The position numbers and the translations under genes were made by a program. The notes beneath the pieces are model-generated. The model saw nothing but the letters and a program-made list of their open reading frames with translations, did not search any database and was not told the DNA's origin. A stretch of 43,370 bases of DNA from an uncultured Halomicronema sp. (lineage in GTDB: Bacteria; Cyanobacteriota; Cyanobacteriia; Phormidesmidales; Phormidesmidaceae). The stretch is taken from assembly GCA_937899725.1 (NCBI GenBank), contig CALCCA010000057.1:1-43370 (forward strand), read 5' to 3'. Below are positions 20,240-42,788 of the stretch, piece by piece (position 1 is the stretch's first letter; each line of letters starts with the position of its first letter).

Positions 20240-20248
20240 GGCCTGTGT
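20240..20248 (+). repeat. 9-bp target-site sequence at the left end of IS copy 1
   Basis: GGCCTGTGT abuts the left end of the complete IS. The expected duplicate is not found at its right end (CTCTGTACC) but occurs at the right end of the inverted copy 2, as the reverse complement at 42780-42788. The 9-bp size suits an IS4-group element. Confidence 0.75.
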
Positions 20249-21564
20249 CTGATTGACTGACAAAAGATGTATATAGAATCGCTGATGCGCTTGCCAGTAG
20301 GTCAACAGAGCTAGAGAAGAGGGAGTCAGCATTCTAGAATCAGATACCCCTCAAAACTCAAGAATGCTGTGAAAAAAACTCCCGCCTCTACCATGCCTTG
20401 ATGAGTTGGTTGGGTCAAGGTGATCACTGGGCACACCTGAGTCACCTAACGACGTGTCTAGCGATGGTAGCGGCCTTGATTCAGACCGGCGAAGTCAATC
20501 TGACACGATGGACTGCCTACATTCCATGCCGGGGGCACTACGCTCAAAGTAAGCAAAGACGAGTCAGACGATGGCTCGGCAATAGCCGCATCAACGTTCA
20601 CCGACTCTACAAACTCATCATCCAAGCAGTGCTGGCAGAGTGGCAGGAAGCTGAGCTCTACCTTAGTTTGGATACCTCGCTGTTTTGGGACGAGTACTGC
20701 CTGATTCGCTTGGCAGTCGTTCATCGTGGCCGCGCCTTGCCGCTCGCTTGGCGAGTCCTGCAGCATCCGAGTGCTTCGGTCGCCTTCGGTGACTATCAAC
20801 AGATGCTGAGTGATGCCGCTCACTATCTACCGGCTGGCATCAAAGTGGTGTTGCTGGCCGATAGAGGCTTTGTCCATAGGGAGTTGATGAGCCTCGTGAC
20901 CAAGCAACTGGGTTGGCACTATCGCATTCGGCTCAAGAGTACCGCCTGGATTTGGCGAGCTCACAAAGGGTGGCATCAACTAAAAGACTTTCACTTTGCC
21001 CCTGGCGCGGCGCGGTGCTTCCAATACGTCAAGCTACACAAGAGTCAATGGTATGGTCCGGTGCATTTGGTCTTTGGCCGCAACAACGTCAATGGTGAGT
21101 TCTGGGCCATTGTTAGTGACGCGAAAACGAGTCTGCAAACCTTTCAAGAATACGGCTGGCGCTTCGACATTGAGGAGGCCTTTCTCGATGACCAATCCAA
21201 TGGCTGGAATCTACAGAAGTCAGAAATCCGCTCCGTCTGTGACCTTTCCAGGCTGTTCTTCATCTTGGCGCTAGCGACGCTCTATGTCACAGCTCAAGGC
21301 ATCGCGGTTGTTGAGTCGGGTAGGCGGCGGTGGGTCGATACCCATTGGTTCCGGGGCAACAGCTATTTTCGTATTGGCTGTGAGTGGGTGAAGGCGGCTT
21401 TGCAGCAAGGCTGGCGCTTAACTCAGCAGGTGTGCTTCTGCGGTAATCGCGATCCGGAACCAGCGATGGCCTCGCGAAGGCAGCATCAACACAACAATCA
21501 GAGACTGGAATTCACCGTACGCTCCTTCGTCTACAAACCTGACTAACTTTTGTCAGTCAACCAG
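20249..21564 (+). mobile_element. Complete IS4-like insertion sequence, copy 1
   Basis: The element is 1316 bp. Its ends are 18-bp inverted repeats: CTGATTGACTGACAAAAG at 20249-20266 and the complement of CTGGTTGACTGACAAAAG at 21547-21564, differing at one base. The boundaries are supported by the point where the second copy (42789 onward) stops matching. It carries one transposase gene. It follows the AT-rich sulfotransferase island. Confidence 0.85.
20401..21546 (+). CDS. IS4-like family transposase
   Basis: A 381-residue DDE transposase that appears intact. The catalytic acidic residues fit Asp91 (LSLDTS), Asp154 (LLADRGF) and Glu258 or Glu259 in WRFDIEEAFLDDQSNGW, the last resembling the C-terminal Glu-containing region of IS4-type enzymes. 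The C-terminal half is identical in protein sequence to the fragment at 42807-43318. I use the ATG at 20401; a TTG one codon earlier is in frame and no good ribosome binding site is visible, which is common for IS genes. The exact IS family assignment would need a database search. Confidence 0.85.
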   Translation: MSWLGQGDHWAHLSHLTTCLAMVAALIQTGEVNLTRWTAYIPCRGHYAQSKQRRVRRWLGNSRINVHRLYKLIIQAVLAEWQEAELYLSLDTSLFWDEYCLIRLAVVHRGRALPLAWRVLQHPSASVAFGDYQQMLSDAAHYLPAGIKVVLLADRGFVHRELMSLVTKQLGWHYRIRLKSTAWIWRAHKGWHQLKDFHFAPGAARCFQYVKLHKSQWYGPVHLVFGRNNVNGEFWAIVSDAKTSLQTFQEYGWRFDIEEAFLDDQSNGWNLQKSEIRSVCDLSRLFFILALATLYVTAQGIAVVESGRRRWVDTHWFRGNSYFRIGCEWVKAALQQGWRLTQQVCFCGNRDPEPAMASRRQHQHNNQRLEFTVRSFVYKPD

Positions 21565-21752
21565 CTCTGTACCTTAGCCTCGACCAGCGCAAAGATAGCC
21601 AGCCCTCAGCCAGGGAAGCAAGAATTTTCGTTAGGCATTTTGTCCTGACTCTCCATGGACTCCCCAAACCAGCTCGGAAATTAGGGGAACCTAGCCACAG
21701 CGAAACCAGATTCATGGGCGGGCCTCAGAGCATCTATGTCAGTTGACCAGCC

Positions 21753-21791
21753 CATAAACAAAAAGCGAGAAGCCGTAGATGGCTTCTCGCT
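21753..21791 (-). terminator. Rho-independent terminator of petF
   Basis: An 11-bp stem (21764-21774 with 21781-21791, AGCGAGAAGCC and complement) has a 6-base loop. On the minus strand it is followed directly by TTTTGTTTAT. It lies 35 bp after the petF stop. Confidence 0.85.
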
Positions 21792-21825
21792 CTCACAAGT
21801 AATGTGTCCTAGCTGTAGCAGCAGC

Positions 21826-22125
21826 TTAGTACAGGTCTTCTTCCTTGTGGGTTTCGATGGTGCAATCGGAAGTCGGATAAGCGACACAAGTCAAAACAAA
21901 GCCTGCTTCAATCTGGTCGTCATCGAGGAAGGACTGATCAGATTGATCAATGCCGCCAGCGGTGATCTTACCGGCACAAGTGGAACAAGCGCCAGCACGG
22001 CAGGAGTAAGGAAGATCAATGCCCTGCTCTTCAGCCGCATCGAGAATGTACATGTCGTCAGCGACTTCGATCGTGGTGTTTAAACCTTCGGATTCGTTGA
22101 CTAAAGTTACTTTGTAAGATGCCAT
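21826..22125 (-). CDS. petF: Plant-type [2Fe-2S] ferredoxin
   Basis: The 99-residue soluble electron carrier accepts electrons from photosystem I and passes them to FNR, nitrite reductase, bilin reductases and others. Cys42, Cys47, Cys50 (in [12 protein letters not shown]) and Cys80 (VLTC) are the four cluster ligands with the standard spacing. The acidic surface and the ending THKEEDLY are typical of cyanobacterial PetF. AAGAGGA lies 8 bases before the ATG. An AT-rich stretch of about 400 bp upstream probably holds a long leader and promoter, and a strong terminator follows the gene, so it is monocistronic. It is divergent from bvdR. Confidence 0.97.
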
Positions 22126-22620
22126 ACTGCAATCCTCTTAACAAAAATGGGAACCGTTATTTCAGCAAACTGTTAACACTGTGTCGCGAACAAAAATAGA
22201 GACACGATTAATTAAGTTTGCTTTCTTATTCGATACTACGGGAAAACCTGTATTGTGTGGGACAAATCCCTCTAACGATTGAATGGGATTCGTAATCGAA
22301 AATCCTATTTTTCACTTTCCGTCTTATCAATACGCTTCATAAAAACCCTTGAACCGTTATAGTACAGGCAGTTTCAAGGCTATCTATGATTGATTTCAGG
22401 ATCATTCCTATCCTCCAGAAGGCATAGCGTTTTATCAGATTTCCCTCATCTATAATTTTTTCTTATGCGTGTATCTTCGAAGGCCCTGTGCGCTCTTGAG
22501 GCTTGGGTTCTATGCTGAATTTGACTGGGCCTATTGGCGTTATTATCAGCTCTGACAAAACCCTCTAAAATCAGACTAGCTTTGGCCGCAATGCCACCCT
22601 CAAGAGGAGCGATCGCAGCG
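22126..22620. other. Intergenic region (495 bp) between divergent petF and bvdR
   Basis: It is AT-rich near petF and must contain both promoters. I could not fix a -35/-10 pair with confidence; a TACTATAAC on the petF strand near 22355 is a weak candidate -10. No gene is supported. The in-frame extension of bvdR into this region lacks conserved sequence. Confidence 0.45.
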
Positions 22621-23655
22621 ATGGGTTTTGACGAGAGAACCGGGCAGCCGGTGCGCGTTGGGTTGATCGGCACGGGCTTTGTCGCCAAGGCCAGAGCGGC
22701 CGCGTTTGAGGCCGATGATCGGGCTCAAGTGGTGGCCGTATGGGGGCATCGGGTTGAGACGGCTCACACGTTTGCCCAGACCCAGACCATTCCAACGGTC
22801 TGCCCCACTTGGCAAGACTTAGTGGCGCATGCTGCGATCGATCTGGTCGTCGTTTGTAACATCAACTGCGACCACGGCCTCGTCGTGCAGGCCGCCCTGA
22901 TGGCCGGTAAGGCGGTGGTGGTGGAATATCCGCTAGCGCTCTGCCCAGACGAAGCCCAGCGGGCGATCGCCCTGGCCCAACAGCAGAATCTGCTGCTGCA
23001 TGTGGAGCACATTGAGCTGTTGGGGGGCCTGCACCAAGCGATGATGGCCCATTTGCCGCAGGTGGGGATCCCCCACTATGTGCGCTATGCCACCGCCGTA
23101 CCCCAAAATCCGGTGCCGCAAAAATGGACTTTTTGCGTCGAGCAGTTTGGCTTTCCCCTGGTGGCCGCACTGTCGCGAGTGCATCGTCTGACCAATCTAT
23201 TTGGCGCGGTGGATGAGGTGTTCTGCCAGCTGCAGTACGACGATCGCGCCGCAGTCGGTTTCACAGGATATTTCAAACAGTGCCGCTGTACCGCTCAGTT
23301 GCGATTTGCTAACGGGGTGATCGCCGAAGTGCTCTACGCCAAAGGAGAACAGACTTGGCGATCACAACGGTGGATGGAAGTGGAAGGCGATCGCGGTGCC
23401 TTAACCTTTGATCGGGAAGCTGGCACCTTGATCACAACGGCGGGTGAAACGCCCATTGAAGTCGGCTCCCGTCGGGGTCTGTTTGCCCAGGACACCGCTA
23501 GCGTGCTGGATGCACTTTTGGAAGGCAAACCGCTCTATGTGACCCTCGCCGAGAGTCTCTATGCGTTGCAGGTGGCGACGGCGGCGGCCACGTCAGCGCA
23601 AACGGGGCGCAGCGTGCGAGTTGAGGCGTCATATCCTAAGCGGGCGGGCCGCTGA
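22621..23655 (+). CDS. bvdR: Biliverdin reductase (Gfo/Idh/MocA fold)
   Basis: BvdR reduces biliverdin IXalpha to bilirubin with NAD(P)H and affects phycobilisome maturation in cyanobacteria. The 344-residue protein has the Rossmann start VRVGLIGTGF (11-20) and EYP at 102-104 in place of the usual EKP. It also has HVEHIELLGG from 127 and later QNPVPQKWT, QFGFPLVAALSR and GSRRGLFAQDTASVLD. I recognise these blocks from the Synechocystis BvdR sequence by memory, which is why I prefer this to a generic oxidoreductase. The ATG at 22621 has AGGAG 11 bases upstream; an earlier ATG at 22591 and a TTG at 22534 are in frame but precede the conserved part. It runs divergently from petF. Confidence 0.88.
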   Translation: MGFDERTGQPVRVGLIGTGFVAKARAAAFEADDRAQVVAVWGHRVETAHTFAQTQTIPTVCPTWQDLVAHAAIDLVVVCNINCDHGLVVQAALMAGKAVVVEYPLALCPDEAQRAIALAQQQNLLLHVEHIELLGGLHQAMMAHLPQVGIPHYVRYATAVPQNPVPQKWTFCVEQFGFPLVAALSRVHRLTNLFGAVDEVFCQLQYDDRAAVGFTGYFKQCRCTAQLRFANGVIAEVLYAKGEQTWRSQRWMEVEGDRGALTFDREAGTLITTAGETPIEVGSRRGLFAQDTASVLDALLEGKPLYVTLAESLYALQVATAAATSAQTGRSVRVEASYPKRAGR

Positions 23656-23861
23656 TTGACCAATCGATGCGGCGCGCATGGCGCTGGCCACGACTCGCGA
23701 TGCCTGAGGTTTAAGGTGCACGATTCATAGTGCACGGGGTAACCGGAAGACTGCTGTCAGGCGGGACTCGTAGTCTGTCAGCTTGATGTTGTCGGTTGGG
23801 TGAGCGCTAGAGATGTCGGCACATCCACCGGATTCGACTGGCCAGCGTCACAGCTCGGGGA

Positions 23862-25076
23862 TTATTTCTGCACGTTGGTTACCCGCCAGTTGAGCTTCAG
23901 GTTAACGCCAAAGTTCCACAGGGTGACGAGGGCGATCGCCACCAGCTTAGCCAGGTAAGCATTGACCCCAAACAGGTTAAACAAAAGGTTGACGATCAGG
24001 GTATTGAGCACCAGCCCCGCCAAGCAAATCAGGTTGAACTTGAGCCAGCGTTGGAGGCGGCACTGCCAGCCCCGTTGCCGCTGCGATAAGTCCGCAAACG
24101 TCCAGGCATCGTTCCACAAAAAGTTATTAAGAATGGCCACTTCGGCCGACAAGACATTGCTCGTCGTGAGGCCGACGCCCCACTGGCTGAACAACAGATA
24201 AAACACGGAGTAATCTACCAATAGGCCGCTGAAGCCCACCAGGGCAAATTGGCAAAAGCGCCGCAGGGGCAAGCTCAAGCGTCGTTTGGGCAGACGACGA
24301 TGCAGCCGCAACCGCAGTAAATGCTGTAGGTAGTCAAGATAGTGTCGCCAGCTGACCTTGCTTTCGCCCACCGTGCGCTCTTGAAAAACGTAGCCGACTT
24401 CGGCAATGTGTTGAATGTGGCCTCGACCTAAGACCTCCAGCAGGATTTTGTACCCTCTAGGGTTGAGCATTGGCCCCGCGATCGCCTCTCGCCGGACTAA
24501 GAAATAGCCACTCATGGGATCAGACACGCGCCCTACCACTTCGGGCAGCACAACGAGCCCCAAAATCTGAGCGCCGCGCGAGAGGGTGCGTCGTAGCAGG
24601 CTCCACTCGCTGACGCCCCCACCCTCCACATGACGACTGGCCAGGGCCAGATCAGTACCGTGCTGCATTTTGGCCAGCAGCTGCAGCAAAATCTCGGGGG
24701 GGTGCTGCAGGTCAGCATCGATGACGCCCAAGATCTGCCCGTCGGCAACTTGCCAACCACGAATCACCGCTGAAGACAGGCCGCTCTCTGCCTGTCGGCG
24801 CATCACTCGCAAGGCGGGATAGCGGCGGGTCAGCTGCAGCCCCAGCTCCCAAGTGCCGTCAGGACTGTCATCATCGACCACGATCAGCTCATAGTTGCCA
24901 CCCAGACGACGATCCAGTAGCTGGGTCAACTGCTCGACCAGCGGCTCCAAGTTGTGGCGCTCTTTAAAGGTCGGAATCACCAGGGAAAGCCAGGGGCCAG
25001 TGGTGGGGAGCGATCGCGCCGCGATTCGCAAAGCGCCCTGGGGAGCCGCTAGGGGAGCCAACAAATTCCGAGTCAT
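23862..25076 (-). CDS. GT2 glycosyltransferase fused to a GtrA-like membrane domain
   Basis: A 404-residue polyprenyl-phosphate sugar transferase-like protein. The N-terminal GT2 domain of the dolichyl-phosphate mannose synthase type shows VVDDDSPDGT (67-75), the DxD in VIDADLQHPPE (Asp120, Asp122) and QERTVGESK near 230. From about 270 a GtrA-like region with four hydrophobic segments follows, the part that may move or anchor the lipid-linked sugar. Such DPM1-GtrA fusions load a sugar from a nucleotide donor onto undecaprenyl phosphate for use across the membrane. The start is the ATG at 25074-25076. The gene stands alone; the acceptor pathway is not visible in the neighbourhood. Confidence 0.88.
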   Translation of the reverse strand: MTRNLLAPLAAPQGALRIAARSLPTTGPWLSLVIPTFKERHNLEPLVEQLTQLLDRRLGGNYELIVVDDDSPDGTWELGLQLTRRYPALRVMRRQAESGLSSAVIRGWQVADGQILGVIDADLQHPPEILLQLLAKMQHGTDLALASRHVEGGGVSEWSLLRRTLSRGAQILGLVVLPEVVGRVSDPMSGYFLVRREAIAGPMLNPRGYKILLEVLGRGHIQHIAEVGYVFQERTVGESKVSWRHYLDYLQHLLRLRLHRRLPKRRLSLPLRRFCQFALVGFSGLLVDYSVFYLLFSQWGVGLTTSNVLSAEVAILNNFLWNDAWTFADLSQRQRGWQCRLQRWLKFNLICLAGLVLNTLIVNLLFNLFGVNAYLAKLVAIALVTLWNFGVNLKLNWRVTNVQK

Positions 25077-25287
25077 TAACCAAGCAGATGGAGAACATTG
25101 AGCAACTATAGTTGACCGGGGCTCCGGGAAGACAGCCCCCGTTCCACTTCTTGCCGGTGCCCGCCTCTCGGGAACATCTGTCTACCCCCCATTCAGATGT
25201 AGAACAGGAGTGACGTTTCTCCTCGGGAGGTTTTTTCCCAATCGATGGGAGAAAGCCCTGGCTATCTTGCTCACGAACTCAGATAAT

Positions 25288-26790
25288 TTATTCCACCACG
25301 AAGGAATATCGCAGCGGGCGCGCCGAATTGGTGCCTAAAAACACAATGAGATCGTAATTGCCCGCTTCATATCCCGCTTCGCCAGCCGTCAACGTGTACA
25401 AATAGGTGCCCGTGTCAGGCGTCACATCGACCGTGCCAGAGGCGATTTCAACAAAGGGAGTGTTCTGCTCCGGCGAGTAGCGCCAGATAAACGTGAGGGG
25501 CAAGTTGCCTTCGGGACGACTAAAGCGGCTACCGATTTCAACATCGGCATTGACGGTTTGAGTCCCCACCGCAAAGCTGCTTGGAGCTTCCCCACAGCGA
25601 TCGCTCTGCTTCGCTTCCAGTTCATCTGGCCCCTGCTCGCTGATGATGGCCTCATATTCCTCAGGCGTTAGGGTCTTCTCACACACCTTAAGGCTCGATA
25701 GCTGAGTCGTGTCATCCGACAGCGTGCCACTAGCAGCTGAGGCCAAAGTGTCAGAACTCGGCCAAACGGCAAACGTATCAGTTTGGGTTAAAAAATCTTG
25801 AGACGTAGACGAGAGGCTCACTTCATAGCTACCCACTGCCAGAGCGGGCAGCGGCACCTCCGCCTTAAATTCTGTCGCACCAGGACTCAGCGTCGTCGAA
25901 ACCGTGTTTAAAACACTGCTGCTACCGGGCACAGATACATAGCTGATGCCCACCGTCACCGGAATCTCCGAGCGAATATGTTGGGGGGCTCCCGTCACAT
26001 AGATCGTCTCAACAGAATCCTCTAAATAATGACCGTCGCTGCTCGCACAGGTGTCGTGTGCTAAAGCGCTGCACACCGCGACGCTGTTGAGTCGGGGCGG
26101 GTTGCCAATCAGCTCAAAAGCGCCGGTGACGTCGTCGTCTCCCGCGACAATGCCGATACTGTAGGCCCCGATCGGGAGACTGGCTAGCGGCAACTCAAAT
26201 TGAGCCTGGCCATCGGCGAGACCCTGGGTAGCGGTGTACACGACTGCACTCGCACTGGTGTCAGGGGCTGCTGCCTCTGCGGCCTCAGGGTCTATCGCCT
26301 CGCCGTCAGCCGCCACCGGATCATCAGCGGGCGGGGTGTCGTCGTCCGGATTAGCTGCCTCGGTATCTGCCGCCTCGGCGTTGCCCTCGCTGCCGACATA
26401 GGTCAACTCCAGAGTGGCTTCTTGTCCGGCTGAGGCGTTGGGGAGCCGAGCCACGACATAGGCCGACTCGGCCTGATCCACATTCAATTCTGACTCATGT
26501 TGGGCACATTTACCTGCTACAGGTGCCTGACAGAGTTGAGCTTTAGCGCTCGCGGGGGTCATCATCAACGCGACAATCGTGAGGATGAATCCAGCCAGTA
26601 GTTTCAACACCTTGGGTTTCAGAAAAGCCAGTTTGGTTTCGAGCTTTCTTTGAATGGGGGGGAACACCACCACAAATGCCAAGAGAGCCACCAGGGCCAC
26701 CCAGATTGGGCCGTTGATTAGGCCAGCCAAAATAACGCTTCCCGCGAAGAGCGAAAATATCCATTGCAGAACTGTTAACAAGAATTTCAT
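25288..26790 (-). CDS. Membrane protein with three Cys-containing beta-rich modules (unknown)
   Basis: A 500-residue protein of no family I recognise. Two hydrophobic segments (about 3-45) are followed by a Lys-rich loop and a third (about 62-83, ending SAKAQLC), after which the rest should be outside. The outer part has three similar modules, each opening with a Cys pair (LCQAPVAGKC, VCSALAHDTC, VCEKTLTPEE..DRC) and ending in a G.Y.L/V strand (GAYSIGIV, GSYEVSLS, GNYDLIVF), like Ig-type or bacterial pre-peptidase domains closed by a disulfide. A Glu/Ala/Asp-rich low-complexity stretch lies within the first module (about residues 135-180). Possible roles are surface binding or assembly. The start is the ATG at 26788-26790. 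Confidence 0.6.
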   Translation of the reverse strand: MKFLLTVLQWIFSLFAGSVILAGLINGPIWVALVALLAFVVVFPPIQRKLETKLAFLKPKVLKLLAGFILTIVALMMTPASAKAQLCQAPVAGKCAQHESELNVDQAESAYVVARLPNASAGQEATLELTYVGSEGNAEAADTEAANPDDDTPPADDPVAADGEAIDPEAAEAAAPDTSASAVVYTATQGLADGQAQFELPLASLPIGAYSIGIVAGDDDVTGAFELIGNPPRLNSVAVCSALAHDTCASSDGHYLEDSVETIYVTGAPQHIRSEIPVTVGISYVSVPGSSSVLNTVSTTLSPGATEFKAEVPLPALAVGSYEVSLSSTSQDFLTQTDTFAVWPSSDTLASAASGTLSDDTTQLSSLKVCEKTLTPEEYEAIISEQGPDELEAKQSDRCGEAPSSFAVGTQTVNADVEIGSRFSRPEGNLPLTFIWRYSPEQNTPFVEIASGTVDVTPDTGTYLYTLTAGEAGYEAGNYDLIVFLGTNSARPLRYSFVVE

Positions 26791-27046
26791 TAGTGTTGTT
26801 TGAATAATTCATCATGAGCGGTCTCGGGTGCTGCACCCGCCAGCCGGTATATGCCCACCCTGGTTTACGGCCAGGCAGGGCAATCCAGACCGATCCCCCA
26901 AGACCGCGATTAGTGTTGGACAGCCCCCAGCAAAACTAGTGGCCGTGTTACAAAAATTTAGTCCTCTGGCCCGCTGTTTTTGTCACCCTCCCTAGCTGAC
27001 GGGCGGGCAATCGCCGGCGATCGCGGCTTGGATAAATTGCTGGCCC

Positions 27047-28030
27047 CTAAGGCTCTGAAGTAGACGGCTGGGGCGACAGACTTTGCTGAAATCGGCAATG
27101 CCCCATGGCCAAATCAAACACATGAAAGCCGTATTCCTGGGACAGCGCTTCGAACACTTTGAGGCCGCGCACGCTGTTGCCATTGCTATCAAGCAGTGGC
27201 GAGTAGACCGCGATCCCGGCCTGGTTCGGGACTACCGCCATCAATCCGCCAGAGACCCCACTTTTCGCCGGGAGACCGACGCGAAACGCCCATTCACCCG
27301 CAAAGTTATACATGCCGCAGGTATACATGACGCTGAGAATGTCGCGCACATATTGGGGCTGCAACACCTGCTCACAGGTGAGCGGATGCTGACCTTGATT
27401 GGCTAACGCCGCCGCCATCGTGGCCAAATCTCGACCGGTGACCAGCAGCGCACATTGTTGAAAGTAGAGATCGAGGGATTCTTCCAGATCGTCGCCAATC
27501 ATGCCGAAGTTGAGCATCAGGTGGGCGATCGCGCGGTTGCGATGTCCCGTGGCTCGCTCGGACAAAAAGGTAGACATATCCACATAGACGTCTTGCCCGA
27601 CATAGCGCCGAAACATGGCCAGCAGGCGATTCAGTCGAGCGGTGAGATTCTCCCCTTTGATCAGACTGGTGGTGGCGATCGCCCCCGCGTTAATCATAGG
27701 ATTTTCGGGTCGGTGGGAGGTTTCGTCAAGGCGAATCAGCGAGTTGAAGGGGTCGCCCGTAGGCTCAACGCCGACCTTTTCGAGCAGGCGATCGCGGCCC
27801 CAATCTTCCAGCGCCATACCGTAGACAAACACCTTGGAGATTGACTGAATGGTGAACTGCTGATCGACATCACCGGCATGAAAGCTGCGGCCATCAGTGG
27901 TGACGACACTAATACCAAAGTAATCAGGATTCGCCTTGGCCAACTCGGGAATATAACTGGCGACCTGACCCACGTTCAGGTCTTGATATCGCTGATACAG
28001 CTGGTCTAAAAAAGCTTGAATGTCGGTCAT
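27047..28030 (-). CDS. glsA: Glutaminase (serine beta-lactamase-like fold)
   Basis: GlsA hydrolyses glutamine to glutamate and ammonia. The 327-residue cytosolic protein has the catalytic Ser-x-x-Lys as Ser63-Lys66 in [66 protein letters not shown] and [14 protein letters not shown] are conserved blocks of the family. The length matches GlsA. The mtnP gene is divergent, 177 bp away. The ATG is at 28028-28030. Confidence 0.95.
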
Positions 28031-28207
28031 AACGGAACGTCACCAAACGCGCGAAAACAGGAGCACCGCAGGGCTGCTTGCCAAACCATATCAGCTTGTC
28101 AGGGGTCATTCTGCCGGCAATCCAGAATTTATTCGGTGGTGAAATATCCCCCCACGACAGCGGACAACCCGCTACAATCAACGGCGTTGAGCAAGACGGG
28201 CTTCTCC

Positions 28208-29083
28208 ATGGCAGCACAGGCAAAAATTGGCATCATTGGCGGCAGCGGCCTTTACAAAATGGAGGCTCTCACTGACGTGGAGGAAGTGTCAGTGGAGACG
28301 CCCTTTGGCCCGCCATCCGACGCTCTGATTATCGGCACGTTGGAGGGAGCAAGGGTCGCCTTTTTAGCGCGCCACGGTCGCCATCACACCCTGATGCCGT
28401 CCGAATTACCCTTTCGAGCCAACATTTACGCCATGAAGCAGCTCGGGGTGGAATACCTGGTTTCGGCGTCGGCAGTGGGTTCTCTTAAAGCCGCTGCCAA
28501 ACCGCTGGACATGGTGGTGCCCGATCAATTCATCGATCGCACCAAAAACCGCGTCTCCACCTTTTTTGGCGAGGGCATTGTCGCCCACATTGCCTTTGGC
28601 GATCCGGTCTGTGGGGCGTTGGCCAAGGTGATTGCCGATGCCGCGACGCAGCTCAATTTGCCTGATGTCACCCTGCATCGCGGTGGCACCTATGTCTGTA
28701 TGGAAGGCCCGGCCTTTTCGACCAAGGCGGAGTCGAACCTCTATCGCAGTTGGGACGCGACGGTGATTGGCATGACGAATTTACCCGAAGCCAAACTGGC
28801 CCGCGAGGCCGAAATCGCCTACGCCACCCTAGCGCTGGTCACCGATTACGACTGCTGGCACCCTGACCATGACAGCGTCACCGTCGAGATGGTGATTGGC
28901 AACCTGCAAAAGAATGCCCAAAACGCCCAGGATGTCATCCGCGCAGTGGTGCGATCGCTGGCAACTTCACCCCCCCCATCCGACGCCCACGACGCGCTGA
29001 AATACGCCATCATCACGCCCCTTGACCAAGCGCCCGAGGCGACTCTGGAGAAGCTTGACCTGCTACTGAAAAAGTACCGTTAG
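28208..29083 (+). CDS. mtnP: S-methyl-5'-thioadenosine phosphorylase
   Basis: MtnP splits methylthioadenosine with phosphate to adenine and methylthioribose-1-phosphate in methionine salvage. The 291-residue protein begins with the phosphate-site loop [10 protein letters not shown] (7-16), followed by [37 protein letters not shown] and [13 protein letters not shown]. The last contains the Asp residues that select adenine in MTAP-type enzymes. I use the ATG at 28208; an upstream in-frame start at 28016 would add 64 residues with no family match. It ends 17 bp before the convergent coiled-coil gene. Confidence 0.93.
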
Positions 29084-29100
29084 GTGCGTGAACTACGCTT

Positions 29101-29433
29101 TCAATCTGACTCTAGCTGAGTCACCCGCTCTTCGAGCTGCCGCAGGTCTTGCCTGATCTCGATCGCCAGCGTGGCCAAATTATCAAACTGCTCTTCTAGC
29201 GACAGCTCATTGAGGCCATCGACGGGGCTAGCGGGTGATGTGGGTGGCGGCAGCGAGCGGCCTGACACCTGGGCTTCTAGCCGCGTGATTTGCGATCGCA
29301 CCCGCGACAGTTCCGATTCCAGGCGATCGACCCGCGATTCCAGGCGAATATTCGTACCTTGGGCGAGACTGCTGACGGTGAGGCCCAGCCAACACAGCAG
29401 TCCTAATATCACCAGCAATAGACTTCTTCTCAT
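29101..29433 (-). CDS. Small exported coiled-coil protein (hypothetical)
   Basis: A 110-residue protein with an N-terminal signal or anchor (MRRSLLLVILGLLCWLGL..SLAQG). It is followed by two heptad-rich coiled-coil stretches (about 28-57 and 79-108, e.g. LESRVDRLESELSRVRSQI) split by a Pro/Ser hinge. It begins 8 bp after the stop of the gene ending at 29442, and its AGGGA ribosome site overlaps that stop, so the two are probably translationally coupled. I know no function. A role as a small envelope scaffold is only a guess. Confidence 0.65.
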   Translation of the reverse strand: MRRSLLLVILGLLCWLGLTVSSLAQGTNIRLESRVDRLESELSRVRSQITRLEAQVSGRSLPPPTSPASPVDGLNELSLEEQFDNLATLAIEIRQDLRQLEERVTQLESD

Positions 29434-29441
29434 GTCAATCC

Positions 29442-33931: not shown

Positions 33932-34071
33932 GGCGACTCTACCTGAGGTGGCAATAGATTAGATATTAACTTAAGTTAAGTTGGCACCGAGAAACCTCCA
34001 CCCAGGGTCGGATTGACGGGGTGAACCGGCCCAGCCGCGCCTCTGCCAGTGATGCCGCGCCTGATCCGCAA

Positions 34072-34572
34072 CTACGGACAATACAAGGTATCGCGCGTAT
34101 TGCGTCCCGTCACGGGGTTGGTGCCTTGAGCCACGTCGCAGAGCAGATCATTGACCTTGGGGTCAAGCAGCACGTCGGTAAAATCAGCCCCGTCAATAAT
34201 CGCCCCGCGAAAGTCGGTGTCAAAGGCGTAAGCCCCTTCGAGGATGGCATTTGTCAAATTGGTGCGAATAAAGCGGGCGCTGTCTAAGGTGGCCCCGGTC
34301 ATGTTGACTCCGGTCATGTCGGCTTGACTAAAGGTGGTGTCAAACAGGCGGGCACCCCGCATATCGGCATTGTGCAAGTCGGCATTCGCGAGATCTGCCC
34401 GCGTGAAGTCATCACCCCGCAGGTCTCGATTCGAAAAATCTGACATGCGTAGGCTTTGCCGGTCGTAGCTGGTCGCATAGGCGGGCGACAGTCCGCCCCC
34501 CAAGCAGAGCGCAAACAGCAAGAAACTGAGGACAACACACCGCGCGATCGCCTGCATCTTCACAAATTTCAT
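34072..34572 (-). CDS. Exported pentapeptide-repeat protein (thylakoid-lumen type)
   Basis: A 166-residue protein with a signal peptide (ends about PAYA) and then A(D/N)LxxADL pentapeptide repeats from about residue 40 to 135, which form a right-handed quadrilateral beta-helix. The C-terminus has two conserved Cys (LLCDVAQG and LYCP) like those of the lumenal TL17/TL20.3-type proteins in chloroplasts and cyanobacteria. The function is unknown. The start at 34572 has AGGGG upstream; a second ATG lies 5 codons in. The gene stands alone. Confidence 0.85.
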   Translation of the reverse strand: MKFVKMQAIARCVVLSFLLFALCLGGGLSPAYATSYDRQSLRMSDFSNRDLRGDDFTRADLANADLHNADMRGARLFDTTFSQADMTGVNMTGATLDSARFIRTNLTNAILEGAYAFDTDFRGAIIDGADFTDVLLDPKVNDLLCDVAQGTNPVTGRNTRDTLYCP

Positions 34573-34750
34573 CGCCCCTACTGCCCACTGCTCAACTCCC
34601 TGATCCTACTCGGTGAGGGGAACCAGTGAAAGCACAAAATCGCCGTCCGGCACACTGAGCCTCAGGCGGAGACAACAGCAATACCAGTACGGCGATTTTG
34701 ACAGTCGCGATGAAGTTAGGGTGAACAGCGATGGGTCGCCGCTGTCTGAG

Positions 34751-35458
34751 CTACCGGCTGAGCAACGGTCGCATGATCAAGAAACCCGCGCCAAAGGCCG
34801 AAACGACTACCAGTAGAATCGTTGTCGCGAGCCACAAGTTACCCATGTCAGACCGTGAAGCCACCTTGCTGAGCGGCCGCATGCCTTCAGGTTGTTCGGT
34901 AAACAGCTTCTGCTTGTTCACCTTGCTGCGATTGGACTTAGGACGATCGCGCTTACGAGCTTTCGGCTGCGGCACAATAGCCTGAGCCTGAGGCTGCCGT
35001 TCGGTCGTGGGGGACGCTGCCGGTTGGGGCGCGGCGGGCGGTGCCGCCGGCGGCGCGACCGGCGCGGCAGCCTCAGCCGGGGCCGCCTTGGGAGCGGCAG
35101 GGGTGACGGGCGGCTGAGCAAACAAGTCGAAACGGGTGGAGGGCTCTTCGCGCTCGATTATCACGCGGTTCGGTATGGCAGCGGGGGCGGCGGGGGGGGC
35201 AATCCCAGCGAAATGTCCGAGCTGTTCGGCTGATTGCACAAACCGCTGAATTTCCGTGCGCAGTAGCGTGTTCTGGCGCAGCAACTGCTGGTTTTGTTGG
35301 GTCAGAGCATCCAGGGTGGTTTGCGTCAGCTTCAGTTCTGTCGCGAGCTCGCGATACACCGAAATCGGTACCGCCGGTGAGTAGCTACCGGGGGCGGCAG
35401 CACCGACCGCGCCAGCCACAGAATATCGTTGAGCATCAGATTTAATAGGGGCGTTCAT
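34751..35458 (-). CDS. Coiled-coil, Pro/Ala-rich single-pass membrane protein (hypothetical)
   Basis: A 235-residue protein starting at the ATG at 35458, with GGGAAAG upstream; a GTG two codons earlier is also in frame. The order is: a short head, a coiled coil (about 32-80, ELKLTQTTLDALTQQNQQLL), a long Ala/Pro linker, a Lys/Arg-rich basic patch (ARKRDRPKSNRSKVNKQ), and one C-terminal membrane helix (LWLATTILLVVVSAFGAGFLI). I recall similar conserved proteins in cyanobacteria, without known function. A tail-anchored cytoplasmic coiled coil with a nucleic acid- or lipid-binding basic patch is one possible reading. Confidence 0.7.
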   Translation of the reverse strand: MNAPIKSDAQRYSVAGAVGAAAPGSYSPAVPISVYRELATELKLTQTTLDALTQQNQQLLRQNTLLRTEIQRFVQSAEQLGHFAGIAPPAAPAAIPNRVIIEREEPSTRFDLFAQPPVTPAAPKAAPAEAAAPVAPPAAPPAAPQPAASPTTERQPQAQAIVPQPKARKRDRPKSNRSKVNKQKLFTEQPEGMRPLSKVASRSDMGNLWLATTILLVVVSAFGAGFLIMRPLLSR

Positions 35459-35806
35459 TGTCACTTTCCCGAGAAACGCGATACACCGGCGATCGCTACA
35501 TAGAGCAACGACTCAGACATCGAGGAATACAGAGCAATTCAGATGCGGTAGATTCCGCCCAAAGCGTATCGCAAAAATCTAACAATGCAACTCTTTTTTA
35601 GCGACTGGTTCAGATGGCGGCATGGGGAGTCGGCCAAATCTGGTTTTTTTCCCTCTCAGCAGTGGTTCAGCAGCCCCTTCGGGCGCTTGGCCAATCTATA
35701 AAAAGGCCGCCTCAGCCAGCGCTTGCCCAGCATCGAAAATGTTCCCTGAGCCATCATAATCGTGACAGCCAGGGGGCGGGGAAAGCAGAGGCGCGATCGC
35801 TCAGCC
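35459..35806. other. Intergenic region (348 bp)
   Basis: It holds the promoter of the coiled-coil gene and the 3' end of the CapA-like gene. I see no gene or strong hairpin in it. Confidence 0.4.
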
Positions 35807-38263
35807 TTAATGAGCTTCAGATACGTTGCTCACCGCCACGGGTTGAATCTCGACGGTCACCGGCACCGGGGCGCTGGGCGGCACCGGATTCAGCGGTTCA
35901 AAAACTTGACTAGTAGGCATGCCCGCTTGAGGGGGCGGAGCTAGGGTGGCTCCTTTGGTAGCAGGTTTCATGACGGCAGGGGGCTCCGATAAAACACTCA
36001 TTGGCCCAACGAGGGGCTCACTGTAGGGGGCAATCGCCTCGGGAGGCTCCGGGGATGACGTTGTCGGCTCAACAGCGGTCGCTGGGGCCGGTGACGGTGC
36101 GGCCAACTCATCTTCTACAATTGGCTCGGCGATCGTTTTCGGCTCAGCCGCTGGGCTCTCCTTGGGCGCAACGCGCAGACTCTCAGGCAGCGCTGATTCT
36201 GGCTCATAAATGGTATTAGGGCTGTCCTTCGGCCCCCATTCTTTAAGCAAGTCTTCGGGAATGGCCTCAATCTCAATATCCAGCAGCTCGTCTTCAGCGA
36301 CGGGCGACGGGGAGGGCGACGGGGTCGGGGCACTGGCCGGTGGCGATGGGGCAGTCTCAGATGGCGGGGGAGCCGCCTCGGGAGCAGTTTTCGTCTCTGG
36401 ACTCAATTCCTTGGCGTCAAAGGGGGAGGCATCCTCCTCATTGTCACCCGTGAACGAATCGGCCCCTGCCGGTGCGGTCTCCTCGGTAGGAACGCCGGTG
36501 CCCGCGTTGAGCACCACGGAGGTGGGCATCGGGGTTTGAAACTCGCTCGACGCGGCGCGGATTTTGGTCAGCACCTGCGCCGCTTCGGTGGCATTCGCGG
36601 GCTGGGGTTGGCCGTCTTTGACCTTGACCGGAATCAGCTCCACTTTCATTTGCCCGTCGCGCAACGAGACCTGCAATACCGCCGTTTCGGCTGTCGGGGC
36701 CTCAGCACTGGTGCCAAAGACGAAATCGCCTAAAGAATAGGCAATGGGTCGCCCCCGATAGATTTCTGCCCCCTGCAGCTGATGCGGATGATGACCCACG
36801 ACCAGATCAGCGCCTTGGTCAATTGCCAGACGCGCCAAATTGGTCTGTGATTCGGCCGGCGTGAGGGGCGGCTCCGTTGACCAGCGATAGTTGACGACGA
36901 GCCAATCGACCTCATCGCGAATCGCCTGAATGTCTCTCACAATGTCCTGCATGTTGACGGCATTGACGCCGCTCACCGAGTCATCGGCTGCCAGGGTGAA
37001 ATCCCGGTCATAGCTGAGGTAGGCAATGCGCTGACCCTTGACATCCATAATCTCGGGACGCCGCGCTTCGCGCTCGCTGCGGCCGGCCCCCACCCGAAAG
37101 ATGCCGTTGCGATCAAGCGTATCCAAGGTTTCGGCGAGTCCCTGCTCCCCAAAGGACAGCGACTTGTCGCCGGTCAGATTCACCACATCGACGCCGCCCG
37201 CTTTGAGCAACTCGATCGCCTCAGGTCGCTGCCGCTCTAACAATTCTTCTTCGAGGGAAGTGGCCGCCGCCGCCAACGGGTCTTGCAGATTCACCATCGC
37301 GACGTCGGCTTGACGATACGCTGGCAAACCGGAGAGCAGCTGTCCATCCTGCTCTAACTGCGCATAGGGCAGGCCATCCAAATCCACATCGCCGCCAAAT
37401 AGCAGCGTAACGGTGGGGTCTTGGGGGGCCGGTAAGCGTTCATGCTTGAGTACTCCGACCGGCTCCAGGGCCGCATTGACCACGTTCGGCCGCTCGCGCT
37501 CGGGCTCTACTTGATAGGAAATGGCAGCGTTTTCTGCAGTGGCAGCTCCCTGCGGTTGAGCCGGCGTCTGGCGATCGATCAACACAGTTGGCTCGGGAGC
37601 GATCGCGGGGAGCTGGGGCTCGCGGGCAGGAGCCGATGGGGGAATGTTTGAGGGCTGCGATCGCACCTCGGCACTGGTCTCGGCCGGCGCTTGAAAGGGC
37701 AGGGCAGGCTCTTGCCGGTTCGACATCACGACTTCAATCATGCAGCCAAACACAAATGCGGCCACCGCCGACCCGGTCAGCATGGAGGCCCGTAGCGTTT
37801 TGAGCTGACCGGTTAACAGCCGCGCCGTCAAACCGGGTAAGCGCGGCGCTGACTTGCGGGCGGCCAATGTGGGCGGGATGACTGCTGCCGCAGAGCCTTT
37901 GCCCTGTTCTCGCTGCAGCCGTTCGCGCAGGGCGGGGGTCATCACCCGAATTCGCTGCTGCCAAACTGGCTGGCGCTCGCCCACCGGTCGCGCCAGCAGA
38001 TGGATGCCCTCGATCAGGGGGGAATTCAGCTGCCACATCAGATGGCAAATAAATTGAGTCAGCGGCTTTTGTAAGGGTTGACGCTCAAACTCAACGATGA
38101 CGCGAATGCAGCCCGGTCGCTTATCTTGGCTCACTTGAGCGTAGATTTTTTCGGGAATCAGCGGCTCATTTAGCCACAGCGCGATCGCCCGAAATTGCCC
38201 CGCTGCTGCCAGTGCCTTAGTTGACAGCTTTTCGGGAGATAAGTTAGACGCTGCGTTGACCAT
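35807..38263 (-). CDS. CapA-family metallophosphoesterase-like protein with N-terminal domain and Pro-rich tail
   Basis: An 818-residue protein. Residues 1-155 form a domain I cannot name. A membrane helix lies at about 158-180, so the rest is probably outside. The CapA/PGA_cap domain runs from about 284: TVTLLFGGDVDLDG has the first metal Asp, followed by NLQDPL, NLTGDKSLSFGEQG, GVGAGRSE-like RVGAGRSEREA, VVGHHPHQLQG (the HHPH metal site) and SLGDFVFG. CapA proteins are tied to poly-gamma-glutamate or other polymer export and have a calcineurin-like fold. The last 220 residues are rich in Pro, Glu, Ser and Ala (APTPSPSPSPVAEDE) and should be disordered. The long extensions on both sides are unusual compared with plain CapA. 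The ATG is at 38261-38263. Confidence 0.82.
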   Translation of the reverse strand: MVNAASNLSPEKLSTKALAAAGQFRAIALWLNEPLIPEKIYAQVSQDKRPGCIRVIVEFERQPLQKPLTQFICHLMWQLNSPLIEGIHLLARPVGERQPVWQQRIRVMTPALRERLQREQGKGSAAAVIPPTLAARKSAPRLPGLTARLLTGQLKTLRASMLTGSAVAAFVFGCMIEVVMSNRQEPALPFQAPAETSAEVRSQPSNIPPSAPAREPQLPAIAPEPTVLIDRQTPAQPQGAATAENAAISYQVEPERERPNVVNAALEPVGVLKHERLPAPQDPTVTLLFGGDVDLDGLPYAQLEQDGQLLSGLPAYRQADVAMVNLQDPLAAAATSLEEELLERQRPEAIELLKAGGVDVVNLTGDKSLSFGEQGLAETLDTLDRNGIFRVGAGRSEREARRPEIMDVKGQRIAYLSYDRDFTLAADDSVSGVNAVNMQDIVRDIQAIRDEVDWLVVNYRWSTEPPLTPAESQTNLARLAIDQGADLVVGHHPHQLQGAEIYRGRPIAYSLGDFVFGTSAEAPTAETAVLQVSLRDGQMKVELIPVKVKDGQPQPANATEAAQVLTKIRAASSEFQTPMPTSVVLNAGTGVPTEETAPAGADSFTGDNEEDASPFDAKELSPETKTAPEAAPPPSETAPSPPASAPTPSPSPSPVAEDELLDIEIEAIPEDLLKEWGPKDSPNTIYEPESALPESLRVAPKESPAAEPKTIAEPIVEDELAAPSPAPATAVEPTTSSPEPPEAIAPYSEPLVGPMSVLSEPPAVMKPATKGATLAPPPQAGMPTSQVFEPLNPVPPSAPVPVTVEIQPVAVSNVSEAH

Positions 38264-38499
38264 TATTTTGATGTCTGGGGTATCGGACGAGAATCGGCGA
38301 CCTCAGTCTGCCGCAAAGCCTGGAGAAAACATGCCTAAAAATTGCGGGTAACAAATTCAAGAAACATGTTTGGTAGAAGCGCCAATGATGATAACAGTGA
38401 ATTCCAAGAAAAGCCCGACTTTGCCAATATTTTAGGCCGATTCTTTGCAGCGCGTCAGCAATCCACAACCCAAAGCTCCAGGCTAAGCGTCAATGGGCC

Positions 38500-39870
38500 C
38501 TAACGACTGACCGGCACTAAATGGCCATCGTCCAAAATGTGCTGCACGACCCCCCCAATTACTTCTCGCAGCATCCTTTGATTGCCACTGTTATCGATGG
38601 TGACGGTGAGCACGTAGCGTTCATCATCAATTTTGACCGCCGTTGAGCTGCCAATTACTTTGGAATTCTGACCGGTCTTTTCCCCAATCCAAGCCACCCG
38701 CTGGCTCCTCAACTGACTAATTGCGGTATAGCCAAACTCCCAGTCATACTGACCGACCATCGCATCGAGAATTTCATCAGCGCCCGGACTGGAGAAGGTA
38801 TAGACTTGCCGCATCATCTCCGTCACTTCATTACTCGTCATGACATTGCGACCCACGGCGCGGTTGCGAGTGGGGGCGGTGCGATCGCCAATCAGCTTCG
38901 TGCGAATTTTGGTCTGTTCGTAGCCCATCTCTTGCAGGGCGTTGTCCATATAGTCCCAGCCGAGATAATCCAACAGCTGATTGGTGGCAATGTTGTTGCT
39001 CTCTTTAATCATGCGCACCATCACTTCTCGGATGGGATACTCATGACGGACGTAGATTTTGGCCCCGTTCGCATTTTCCGTCCAGTTGTGAGGCTCGACA
39101 TACATCGAGTCGGTGATATCAATCTCTTCATCAACCACCTTTTTCATCAGCACCACTGCCACCGGCAGCTTGATCAGGCTGGCCGGGCTGGCCGGTGGCT
39201 GATCGCCTCGGTAGTCGCGACATTCCCCCGAAAGATGACAGACCGTGATGCGAATGGCGCGAGGCCGCCCGGTGGCTTCGGCGATGTCGGCTAAAAAGAC
39301 CGACTGCAGCTGGTCAATATCCTTCGCGACTGGTCTCAGAATGGCCGCATAACCTGCCCGGCGTTCAGCGGCGGCTGCCGCCAATATCGAGTCGGGGGAA
39401 ATCTGATCGAGCTGCCGCAGAGCCGATTCCCACAGATACTCCTGCTGCTGCAGTTCGGCCAGGGTCTCTTCATTATCTTCACGACCGGCATCCCGCACGG
39501 CAATGCTCTGTACGGCCAGCTCTTTAGACCGTTGGAAGTTGGCATCAGCGGCGGCTTCCATCGCCAATCTTTCGCGCGTGAGACGGGCCGCTTGCACCAC
39601 CGTAAAGTAGGGCGCGAGATCGCCCATGCCTTGGGTCAGTTCAGACGGCACTAACGCCGGGTCATTCGCCGGGTCCGCCGCCAGCGCGCTGGCTTCATCC
39701 GGGTTGATTTCACCGGAGGATGGTCTTTGCTGCCACATCGCCGTGAATGTCGGTCGCAGCCCGCCGATCGCGATGGCGACCACAAAGCCCGATAGAAAAC
39801 CCACCCCAAACACCCAGGGAGTGTTCCAGGAACGCTGCGAAAACGTATTTTTTAGACTCTCTCCTAACAC
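38500..39870 (-). CDS. Membrane-anchored serine hydrolase of the beta-lactamase/PBP fold
   Basis: A 456-residue protein with an N-terminal membrane anchor (about 19-38), a helical region (about 85-190), then a beta-lactamase-like domain. It has all three active-site motifs: Ser231-Leu-Ile-Lys234, Ser291-Asn-Asn293 and Lys398-Thr-Gly400. I do not see the ExxLN of class A beta-lactamases, so it is more likely a carboxypeptidase- or esterase-type protein acting on the cell wall than a resistance enzyme. VTVCHLSGECRDYRG just before the active Ser has two Cys that may form a disulfide. The start is a GTG at 39868-39870, with AAGG nearby; no ATG precedes the anchor. Confidence 0.8.
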   Translation of the reverse strand: MLGESLKNTFSQRSWNTPWVFGVGFLSGFVVAIAIGGLRPTFTAMWQQRPSSGEINPDEASALAADPANDPALVPSELTQGMGDLAPYFTVVQAARLTRERLAMEAAADANFQRSKELAVQSIAVRDAGREDNEETLAELQQQEYLWESALRQLDQISPDSILAAAAAERRAGYAAILRPVAKDIDQLQSVFLADIAEATGRPRAIRITVCHLSGECRDYRGDQPPASPASLIKLPVAVVLMKKVVDEEIDITDSMYVEPHNWTENANGAKIYVRHEYPIREVMVRMIKESNNIATNQLLDYLGWDYMDNALQEMGYEQTKIRTKLIGDRTAPTRNRAVGRNVMTSNEVTEMMRQVYTFSSPGADEILDAMVGQYDWEFGYTAISQLRSQRVAWIGEKTGQNSKVIGSSTAVKIDDERYVLTVTIDNSGNQRMLREVIGGVVQHILDDGHLVPVSR

Positions 39871-40342
39871 CGGTGCCTTGACTCCCCAGAATACGGTTGG
39901 ATGTTGGGTAAATTATCGCGTTTGATGGTCGCTTTAGTGTCCTGCTGACTACCAAAATAGGGGAAAGGTTGCCCTTTATTGAGTAGATATACTGTTGAAT
40001 TGTGCGATGTTTGCTCTCTAAAACGCGATCTAGCGGGTGGAGCGATCGCGAATTTCTACCCCGCTCAAGGGCAAGAATTTGAGGTGCGCGGCGGGGCCAG
40101 AGCTCATAATCGGCAATTTTCAGCAGTGCGGCGGTGAGCGGTGCCGTCCTTTCCTATACTGGTAGGCTAGTGGCGCAGTCATCGCTGATTGAGCCGGTTT
40201 GAGAGCGAGTTTCAGCTCACACTCGATGGCGTTTCGGCGATCGATGACGGGGGAGCTAGCCGCAATCGCCCGGACTGCTTCACCTGCTCACTCGCTGGGG
40301 CATGTCCTCGGCCCTTTTTATCCATCACCTCTGAGGCCAGTT
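39871..40342. other. Intergenic region (472 bp) between divergent serine hydrolase gene and gatA
   Basis: It should carry both promoters. No gene or strong hairpin is seen. A frame that extends gatA upstream to 40199 has no conserved sequence. Confidence 0.4.
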
Positions 40343-41797
40343 ATGTCGTTGATCCGCGAGTTACATCGTCAACTCACGCAAAAAGAGCGCTCTGCGGTTG
40401 AGATCACCCAAGCCTATTTGAGTCGGATCGAAACGTTGGAGCCCCAGTTGCGCAGCTTTTTGACGGTGACCGCCGATCAGGCCCTGACCCAAGCCCAAGC
40501 GGTGGATCAAAAAATTGCTGACGGTGCCGCGATCGGCCTGTTGGAAGGGATTCCGATGGGTCTGAAAGATAATTTGTGCACCCAGGGCATTCGCACCACC
40601 TGTGCCTCAAAGGTGCTCGACAACTTTGTGCCCCCCTATGAGTCAACGGTCACCCAGCGACTCGCTGAGCAAGGGGTGATTGCGCTGGGCAAAACTAATC
40701 TAGATGAGTTTGCCATGGGCAGCTCGACCGAAAACTCCGCCTATCAGGTCACCGGCAATCCCTGGAATCCGGATTGTGTGCCGGGTGGCTCATCGGGCGG
40801 GTCAGCAGCGGCCGTGGCGGCCGATGAATGTCCTGTCGCCTTAGGGTCAGATACCGGGGGCTCGATTCGTCAACCGGCCTCTTTTTGCGGCGTCGTTGGC
40901 CTCAAACCCACCTATGGCTTGGTATCTCGCTACGGACTGGTGGCCTTTGCCTCGTCTCTTGACCAAATTGGCCCCCTCACCCGCACGGTGGAAGATGCGG
41001 CGATCGTCCTGCAGGCGATCGCGGGTCACGATCCCAAAGATTCCACCAGCCTCAACGTCGAAGTGCCTGACTATACGCAAAATCTGCAGCCAGGATTAAA
41101 TTGCCAGGGCCGGACGATTGGCATCATTCAAGAAACCTTCGGCGAAGGGCTCGATCCCGAAGTTGATCAGGCCGTGAAAGCCGCGATCGCCCAGTTTGAA
41201 GCTCTCGGCGCCAAGGTCAAGACGATCTCCTGCCCGCGGTTTCGCTATGGTCTGCCCAGCTACTACATCATTGCGCCCTCCGAAGCCTCCTCCAACCTGG
41301 CCCGGTATGACGGAGTGAAGTACGGGGTACGCGCTGACGACAGCAACCTGATCTCGATGTATGCCAAAACGCGGGCAACCGGTTTTGGCCCAGAGGTCAA
41401 ACGTCGCATCATGATTGGCACCTACGCGCTATCGGCCGGGTATTACGATGCTTACTATCTAAAAGCTCAAAAAGTTCGCACCCTGATCAAACAGGATTTT
41501 GAAGCCGCTTTTCAAGAAGTGGATGCCCTAGTGTGCCCCACCTCGCCGACGACCGCCTTTAAAGCTGGGACCAAGGTGGATGATCCCCTCAGCATGTATC
41601 TGATCGATTTGATGACGATTCCCGTTAATCTGGCCGGTCTGCCCGGCATCAGCCTGCCCTGTGGCTTCGACGAGTCGGGATTGCCCATCGGCTTGCAGCT
41701 CATTGGCAACGTGCTGCAAGAGCAAACGCTGTTTGAGATGGCCTATGCCTATGAGCAAGCCACCGACTGGCACCAAAAGTCCCCTCAGTTGACCTAG
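40343..41797 (+). CDS. gatA: Aspartyl/glutamyl-tRNA(Asn/Gln) amidotransferase subunit A
   Basis: GatA is the amidase of the GatCAB complex, which converts misacylated Glu-tRNA(Gln) (and Asp-tRNA(Asn)) to the amide form using glutamine. The 484-residue protein has the amidase signature [13 protein letters not shown] (148-160). The Ser-cisSer-Lys catalytic set is Lys75 (MGLKDN), Ser150 and Ser174 ([11 protein letters not shown]); the spacing matches the enzyme from Staphylococcus with an offset of 4. The ATG at 40343 has TGAGG 6 bases before it. The alpha/beta hydrolase gene follows 121 bp later. Confidence 0.96.
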
Positions 41798-41918
41798 CTG
41801 CCCTAGCCAGTCTGCGAATACTACATGGGACATGATCCACGGCTGCCGGTCGCGGGTAATCTCGTCACCGGGTACGCTGACGTGAGGGACGGATGTCAAC
41901 GGATAGTCAGAGACAGCA

Positions 41919-42779
41919 ATGGAACAGTTGATTTTTGGTCTGTTGGGATTGGGAGCGATCGCTTACGCAGCGCTCTGTTTGGCCCTTTGGTGGGGCCAAA
42001 CCCGCCTGATTTTTCATCCTCAACCGGCCCCGACAACCACGCCCGCCTCTGTTGGCCTAGCCTACGAAGATATCCAGATCTCCGTGGCCGAGGGACACAT
42101 TCATGGCTGGTGGCTGCCTCATGAAGCCCCCCATGCCAAAACGGCTCTGGTCTTACATGGCAACGCCAGCAACGTCGCCGATACGCTAAACCAGACCCAA
42201 CCACTGCTCGCTGCTGGTCTCTCGGCACTGGTGATTGACTACCGAGGCTATGGCCGCAGTTCGGGGCCTTTTCCCAACGAGAGCCGGGCTTATGCCGATG
42301 CCGCCGCCGCTTGGGCCTATCTCGTCGAAACTCGGGGCATCCCTGCCGATGCCATCGTGATTTTTGGCCATTCGATTGGGGGCGCGATCGCGATTGATTT
42401 GGCATACCATCAACCCCAAGCCGCTGGCCTCATTGTCCAAGCTTCTTTCACTTCCATGACGGCCATGATGGATCATGTTGGCTACAGTCGAATTGTGCCT
42501 AAATGGCTGCTTCACCAGCGGTTTGACTCCATCACAAAAATCGCTAGCGTCTCCCCCCCTTTGCTGCTGATCCACGGCCTCGCAGACACTACGGTGCCAG
42601 CCCGTATGAGCGAAGCACTCCAGGCAGCGGCAGCGGCACCTAAACAGCTGTGGCTATTGCCAGGCGCAGAGCACAACGATATTGCCGAGATTGCTCATGC
42701 TCACTATATTGACCGGCTAAAAGAGTGGTTAAAAGACCATCAGCAAACACACGCGTTATCAACAGAAATACCTGCCTAA
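41919..42779 (+). CDS. Membrane-anchored alpha/beta hydrolase
   Basis: A 286-residue protein with an N-terminal membrane helix (about 4-26) and a BEM46/ABHD13-type hydrolase domain. The triad fits Ser152 in GHSIGG, Asp223 in HGLADTTVP and His252 in GAEHND; HGNAS forms the oxyanion region. The substrate is unknown. It ends 9 bp before the IS copy 2, and the 9 bases just before the IS are the reverse complement of the IS copy 1 left flank, so its original downstream sequence was probably the sequence now at 20239 and to the left. Confidence 0.85.
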   Translation: MEQLIFGLLGLGAIAYAALCLALWWGQTRLIFHPQPAPTTTPASVGLAYEDIQISVAEGHIHGWWLPHEAPHAKTALVLHGNASNVADTLNQTQPLLAAGLSALVIDYRGYGRSSGPFPNESRAYADAAAAWAYLVETRGIPADAIVIFGHSIGGAIAIDLAYHQPQAAGLIVQASFTSMTAMMDHVGYSRIVPKWLLHQRFDSITKIASVSPPLLLIHGLADTTVPARMSEALQAAAAAPKQLWLLPGAEHNDIAEIAHAHYIDRLKEWLKDHQQTHALSTEIPA

Positions 42780-42788
42780 ACACAGGCC
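42780..42788 (-). repeat. 9-bp target-site sequence at the right end of IS copy 2
   Basis: On the minus strand this reads GGCCTGTGT, identical to 20240-20248 at the left end of copy 1. It abuts the right inverted repeat of copy 2 exactly. It overlaps the last A of the hydrolase stop codon. Confidence 0.75.

Follow-up and report, generated by a model that had tools for sequence, protein, structure and literature searches.

We consider it probable that 21,224 bp of the genome of an uncultured Halomicronema sp. have been inverted by recombination between two oppositely oriented copies of an IS4-type insertion sequence (IS). The DNA analysed, hereafter the window, is the entire contig CALCCA010000057.1 (43,370 nucleotides; C57 below); the draft genome to which it belongs comprises 216 contigs and 6,994,590 bases. 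Two observations carry this reading: the two 9-bp target duplications of the IS are reciprocally exchanged between its copies, one of which continues on a second contig (C156), and a congener has the IS-free site and the older gene order at one of the two insertion sites.

Exchange of the target duplications between two IS copies

Copy 1 is intact and bounded by 18-bp terminal inverted repeats, matching at 17 of 18 positions, with the sequence CTG(A/G)TTGACTGACAAAAG. Copy 2 lies in the opposite orientation and in two parts (Table 1). A sequence-only reading of this DNA had held that the copies share identical sequence, and over the 530 bp of copy 2 present in the window this holds without exception; over the 788 bp represented on C156 there is one 5-nt deletion. 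Searching the genome with copy 1 returned five places, namely copy 1 itself, the two half copies and two pieces on contig C41, and copies 1 and 2 are the sole near-identical pair among them.

Read in the orientation of the IS, copy 1 is preceded by GGCCTGTGT and followed by CTCTGTACC, and for copy 2 the order is CTCTGTACC before and GGCCTGTGT after. Both duplications are reciprocally exchanged between the copies. GGCCTGTGT occurs exactly twice in the window and, as the earlier reading had stated, abuts an IS end each time; of 100 shuffled windows, 5 contained it at least twice at any position. By simple arithmetic, two 9-mers at IS ends would be equal by chance with a probability of about 4^-9, and both matches would arise with a probability of about 1.5e-11. 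A chance 9-mer match was rejected since a second, independent 9-mer (CTCTGTACC) pairs the remaining two IS ends. Another IS copy that might explain GGCCTGTGT was also sought and none was found in the genome; the relative on C41 carries its own intact 9-bp pair, GGCCGTTAT. The second match, CTCTGTACC, was out of sight for the earlier reading, as its partner lies on C156.

Table 1. Positions of the insertion sequence copies, their target duplications and neighbouring features (window coordinates unless a contig is named).
Feature	Position	Strand	Basis
Target duplication 1, left copy, GGCCTGTGT; touches the left inverted repeat (IRL) of copy 1	20240..20248	+	direct reading, pattern search
Target duplication 1, other copy, GGCCTGTGT; touches the right inverted repeat (IRR) of copy 2	42780..42788	-	
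Target duplication 2, CTCTGTACC; right flank of copy 1	21565..21573	+	
Target duplication 2 partner, CTCTGTACC; precedes IS start of copy 2	C156:27061-27069		
IS copy 1, intact, 1,316 bp	20249..21564	+	sequence reading and genome search
IS copy 2, 3' part, IS nt 787-1316 (530 bp)	42789..43318	-	identical to copy 1
IS copy 2, 5' part, IS nt 1-788 with 5-nt deletion	C156:27070-27852		genome search
Putative inverted segment, 21,224 bp, one copy of each duplication, ferredoxin-like gene to hydrolase gene	21565..42788		swapped duplications and relatives' gene order
Transposase gene of copy 1, 382 aa, IS4-type	20398..21546	+	open reading frame and NF033591
Sulfotransferase gene, undisrupted; ends 31 bp before target duplication 1	19288..20208	+	Pfam
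Alpha/beta hydrolase gene, undisrupted; stop codon abuts target duplication 1	41919..42779	+	Pfam
IS630-type element end, inserted at TA in copy 2	43319..43370	-	52-bp repeat; window contig ends here

Copy 2 is incomplete in the window because the contig ends inside a nested element. Its two halves share two bases, TA, and both continue into an end of an IS630-type element. This suggests that copy 2 is a single IS divided by an IS630-type insertion nested in it, that the assembly broke in this nested element, and that C57 and C156 are probably joined through it. The genome has 18 places with the 52-bp end seen in the window, and at 12 of them, counting the window's own, the contig breaks off 50-53 bp into this end. 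On the C156 side (C156:27853-28970, L006) the encoded start of the element matches HTH_Tnp_IS630, the frame stops early, and a further open reading frame (ORF) after it (L006 8078-8653) has no Pfam or NCBIfam match. The first 178 bases of this side recur at 3 other places in the genome (83-88% identity), compared to 18 for the opposite end; contig C17 holds both kinds of IS630-type end about 1 kb apart, at 83% and 96% identity.

Gene order at the two insertion sites in relatives

Both insertions are intergenic and no gene is broken at either site: at site 1 the IS lies 31 bp past the stop of the sulfotransferase gene and directly past that of the hydrolase gene (both named from Pfam), and at site 2 between a ferredoxin-like gene and a gene for a protein of 153 amino acids. 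The gene at 21829-22128 (minus strand), called ferredoxin-like here, we take to be a ferredoxin from its translated sequence, and the gene at 40346-41797 is presumably gatA from its sequence. The genes at 16370 and 18360 have no Pfam family, and from reading their sequence we assume them to be glycosyltransferase-like.

The clearer comparison is available at site 2. Joining C156 up to position 27069 to the window from 21574 onward gives the junction that would have preceded the flip, and contig C353 of the congener G002 aligns with this joined sequence as one 2,022-bp block at 93.9% identity. In the base-by-base alignment the junction contains the 9-bp site once and lacks the IS. A second congener, G003, agrees in order (153-aa gene, ferredoxin-like gene, oxidoreductase). 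The earlier reading had everything from 21565 to 42788 inverted, and both the reciprocal CTCTGTACC swap found on C156 and the older join in G002 lend support to this. In the stretches of 8 relatives around the 153-aa gene no hydrolase match was found, and the idea that the present gene order is ancestral was set aside, as the present joins occur in no relative stretch examined (some of which are cut by contig ends).

At site 1, turning the segment back puts the hydrolase gene and gatA in convergent orientation with the glycosyltransferase-like/sulfotransferase cluster. The neighbourhood in G012, which belongs to another genus of the family, has the order 16370 homolog (+), 18360 homolog (-), hydrolase (-), gatA (-) and 38500, 35807 and 34751 homologs (+). 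This is the window order read backwards from 42779, as re-inversion predicts, with no sulfotransferase in that stretch. In the congener G001 the homologs of 16370, 18360 and 19288 (+) are followed by inserted ORFs, presumably IS1-like as recognised by eye. Beyond these, some 0.9 kb past the sulfotransferase homolog, the minus strand carries a degraded C-terminal relic of gatA (both in L060 10502-11645, G001:C5). The relic matches gatA residues 422-469 at 73% and contains a stop, a second, weaker match extends to residue 480, and a longer gatA match exists elsewhere in the same genome. In G003 and G005 a glycosyltransferase-like gene adjoins hydrolase-gatA or gatA and faces the same way as gatA, an arrangement that is neither for nor against the exact older order. 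In none of the four stretches fetched around the sulfotransferase gene (G001, G004, G015, G022) does the ferredoxin-like gene or the oxidoreductase adjoin it, and an IS-free site 1 at the nucleotide level was not found among the relatives, contig C119 of G002 ending before the site at approximately window position 18781. The older gene order at site 1 is thus supported more weakly than that at site 2, with the exact join unseen. The ancestral convergence of sulfotransferase and hydrolase genes that had been proposed from the sequence has partial support, through the G012 neighbourhood and the G001 relic.

Origin of the probable inversion

The series of events that seems most reasonable would begin with two copies of the same IS4-type element inserted 21 kb apart in opposite orientation, each within its own 9-bp duplication, with GGCCTGTGT next to the sulfotransferase gene and CTCTGTACC next to the ferredoxin-like gene. 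One crossover between the resulting 1.3-kb inverted repeats would then flip the 21,224 bp and trade the inner halves of both duplications, which would account for all four flanks. Near-identity over 1.3 kb in inverted copies would make them a substrate for ordinary homologous recombination, and we infer that it produced the flip and that the flip exists in the organism itself.

To judge how telling the flanks are, it is important to consider the relatives of this IS in other genomes. Among 36 such loci, all cyanobacterial, 18 have both ends and full flanks, a contig end truncates a flank in 4 more, and 14 lack one end or both. Intact duplications are present in 8 of the 18 measurable loci (six of 9 bp by script, two of 10 bp by eye), so that these, together with the C41 copy, serve as a control that this IS type is able to leave an intact duplication. 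Flanks are unmatched in the other 10, and a reciprocal swap was seen in none of these 10 when they were checked by eye, with no script. Since unequal flanks are common among the IS relatives, it is the reciprocal swap, and not unequal flanks as such, that is the telling sign.

The frequency of unequal flanks is one of several points that weigh against an inversion by recombination. The older join at site 2 is present in 2 of 6 judgeable relatives (G002 and G003); the 153-aa gene is without a ferredoxin match in the fetched stretch of G001, G005, G010 and G018, and G004 and G020, whose contigs end 348 and 98 bases past the 153-aa gene, were left out of the count. At site 1 the intact sulfotransferase-hydrolase join is in none of the relatives examined. 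Different genes stand next to the sulfotransferases of G015 and G022 (70-71% identical), the homolog in G004 is just 39% identical with no gatA or hydrolase beside it, and the closest congener, G002, has no sulfotransferase match and a hydrolase match of 35%. Finally, the genome is a draft of 216 contigs, and 1.3-kb two-copy repeats are where assemblers mis-join.

This last point leads to the alternative that we take most seriously, though we think it unlikely: that the older order persists in the organism and the assembler switched between the two IS copies within the repeat, so that the 21 kb are inverted only on paper. A mis-join at the IS would yield identical swapped flanks, and the support of the relatives for the older order suits this account too. 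The copies differ by one 5-nt indel and are therefore alike over 755 bp on one side of it and 530 bp on the other, and the contig breaks at 12 of the 18 IS630-type ends look like those of a short-read assembly. Yet this assembly often breaks at repeats it is unable to resolve, whereas here the 788 and 530 bp that the copies share were assembled along every path, with no N in the window or in C156, which suggests that read pairs spanned the shared stretches. A control for assembler fidelity, in which 20 DDE_Tnp_1 loci of the genome were compared with the window and two other loci, yielded no near-identical pair besides copies 1 and 2.

A one-step intramolecular transposition, in which a lone IS at site 1 targeted site 2 and thereby created both the inversion and the second, inverted copy, appears to us somewhat less probable again. 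The earlier reading had named this option as well. By reasoning it leaves the same flank pattern, just two near-identical copies of the IS were found in the genome, and IS30 is described as producing inversions by intramolecular transposition (PMC9333248, in its accessible text). What speaks against it is the cut-and-paste mode described for IS4-family elements (PMC2266710, likewise), which makes a replicative inversion less to be expected, and the fact that homologous recombination, with two inverted copies in place, calls for no special reaction. Taken together, the propositions that the IS4-type transposase inverted the segment in one replicative step, or that the segment still flips with both orientations in the culture, have in our judgement a small chance of being true. 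Two inverted copies of one IS flanking a segment might also recall a composite transposon that moved jointly with the 21 kb between, and this has next to no chance of being correct: the outer flanks are unequal (GGCCTGTGT at 20240 vs. CTCTGTACC at C156:27061) and the match of each inner flank is the outer flank at the other end of the segment, in agreement with the earlier dismissal of a composite transposon.

The IS4-type element and the meaning of the proposed inversion

The tentative assignment of the element to the IS4 type comes from its transposase, which matches the IS4 model NF033591 with an E of 3.6e-38 and 131.5 bits, under the cut-off of 152, and has no Pfam family at E 0.001. Residues Y252, R255 and E259 are present, and the K position of the Y-(2)-R-(3)-E-(6)-(K) signature, which is given with the K bracketed in the accessible text of a description of the family (PMC2266710), is Q. 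The same source gives target duplications of about 10 bp for the family, 7-13 bp by subgroup, a range into which the 9-bp duplications of this IS fall. With the IS10 and IS50 subgroups, as described there, the element appears to have in common a single-ORF transposase and the Y-(2)-R-(3)-E residues, along with ends starting with CT, 9-bp duplications and a length of 1.3 kb. It is unlike the family in the glutamine that replaces the YREK lysine and in its NCBIfam score below cut-off.

Three side observations concern this IS and the contig. The diverged copy on C41 was matched as two pieces, at 71% and 79%, and by eye has an apparent second transposase-like sequence inside it (L008 2469-3881). 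In Leptolyngbya sp. Heron Island J two contigs (L073 and L074) break off in this IS, one 9-mer, CAATAGATC, flanking it on one side in the first and on the other side in the second, which suggests that they may be neighbours. The start of C57 itself holds a 300-bp direct repeat, 23-322 vs. 479-778, that is 76% identical.

A comparable use of insertion-site repeats is available from Mycoplasma mycoides subsp. capri 95010, in which an 80.9-kb inversion between two copies of an integrative conjugative element (ICE) was inferred from exchanged direct repeats (PMC3053259, in its accessible text). Both cases have inverted copies of a mobile element and use the insertion-site repeats alike. The differences are that the M. 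mycoides elements are ICEs 80.9 kb apart, whereas here they are IS4-type IS with 21.2 kb between them, one copy being interrupted by another IS. A search of the literature for comparable events in cyanobacteria or involving IS4 elements brought up no direct parallel among the entries listed, and we do not claim that none has been published; PMC5495485, as far as its accessible text goes, concerns another mechanism.

The case is a new instance of a well-understood, textbook type of rearrangement; it broke no gene and opens no long-standing question. Its value lies in being a clean trace of an IS reshuffling cyanobacterial gene order, with one IS-free site kept in a close relative, and in illustrating that swapped target duplications, when compared across contigs, can both reveal an inversion and link the contig ends of a draft genome.

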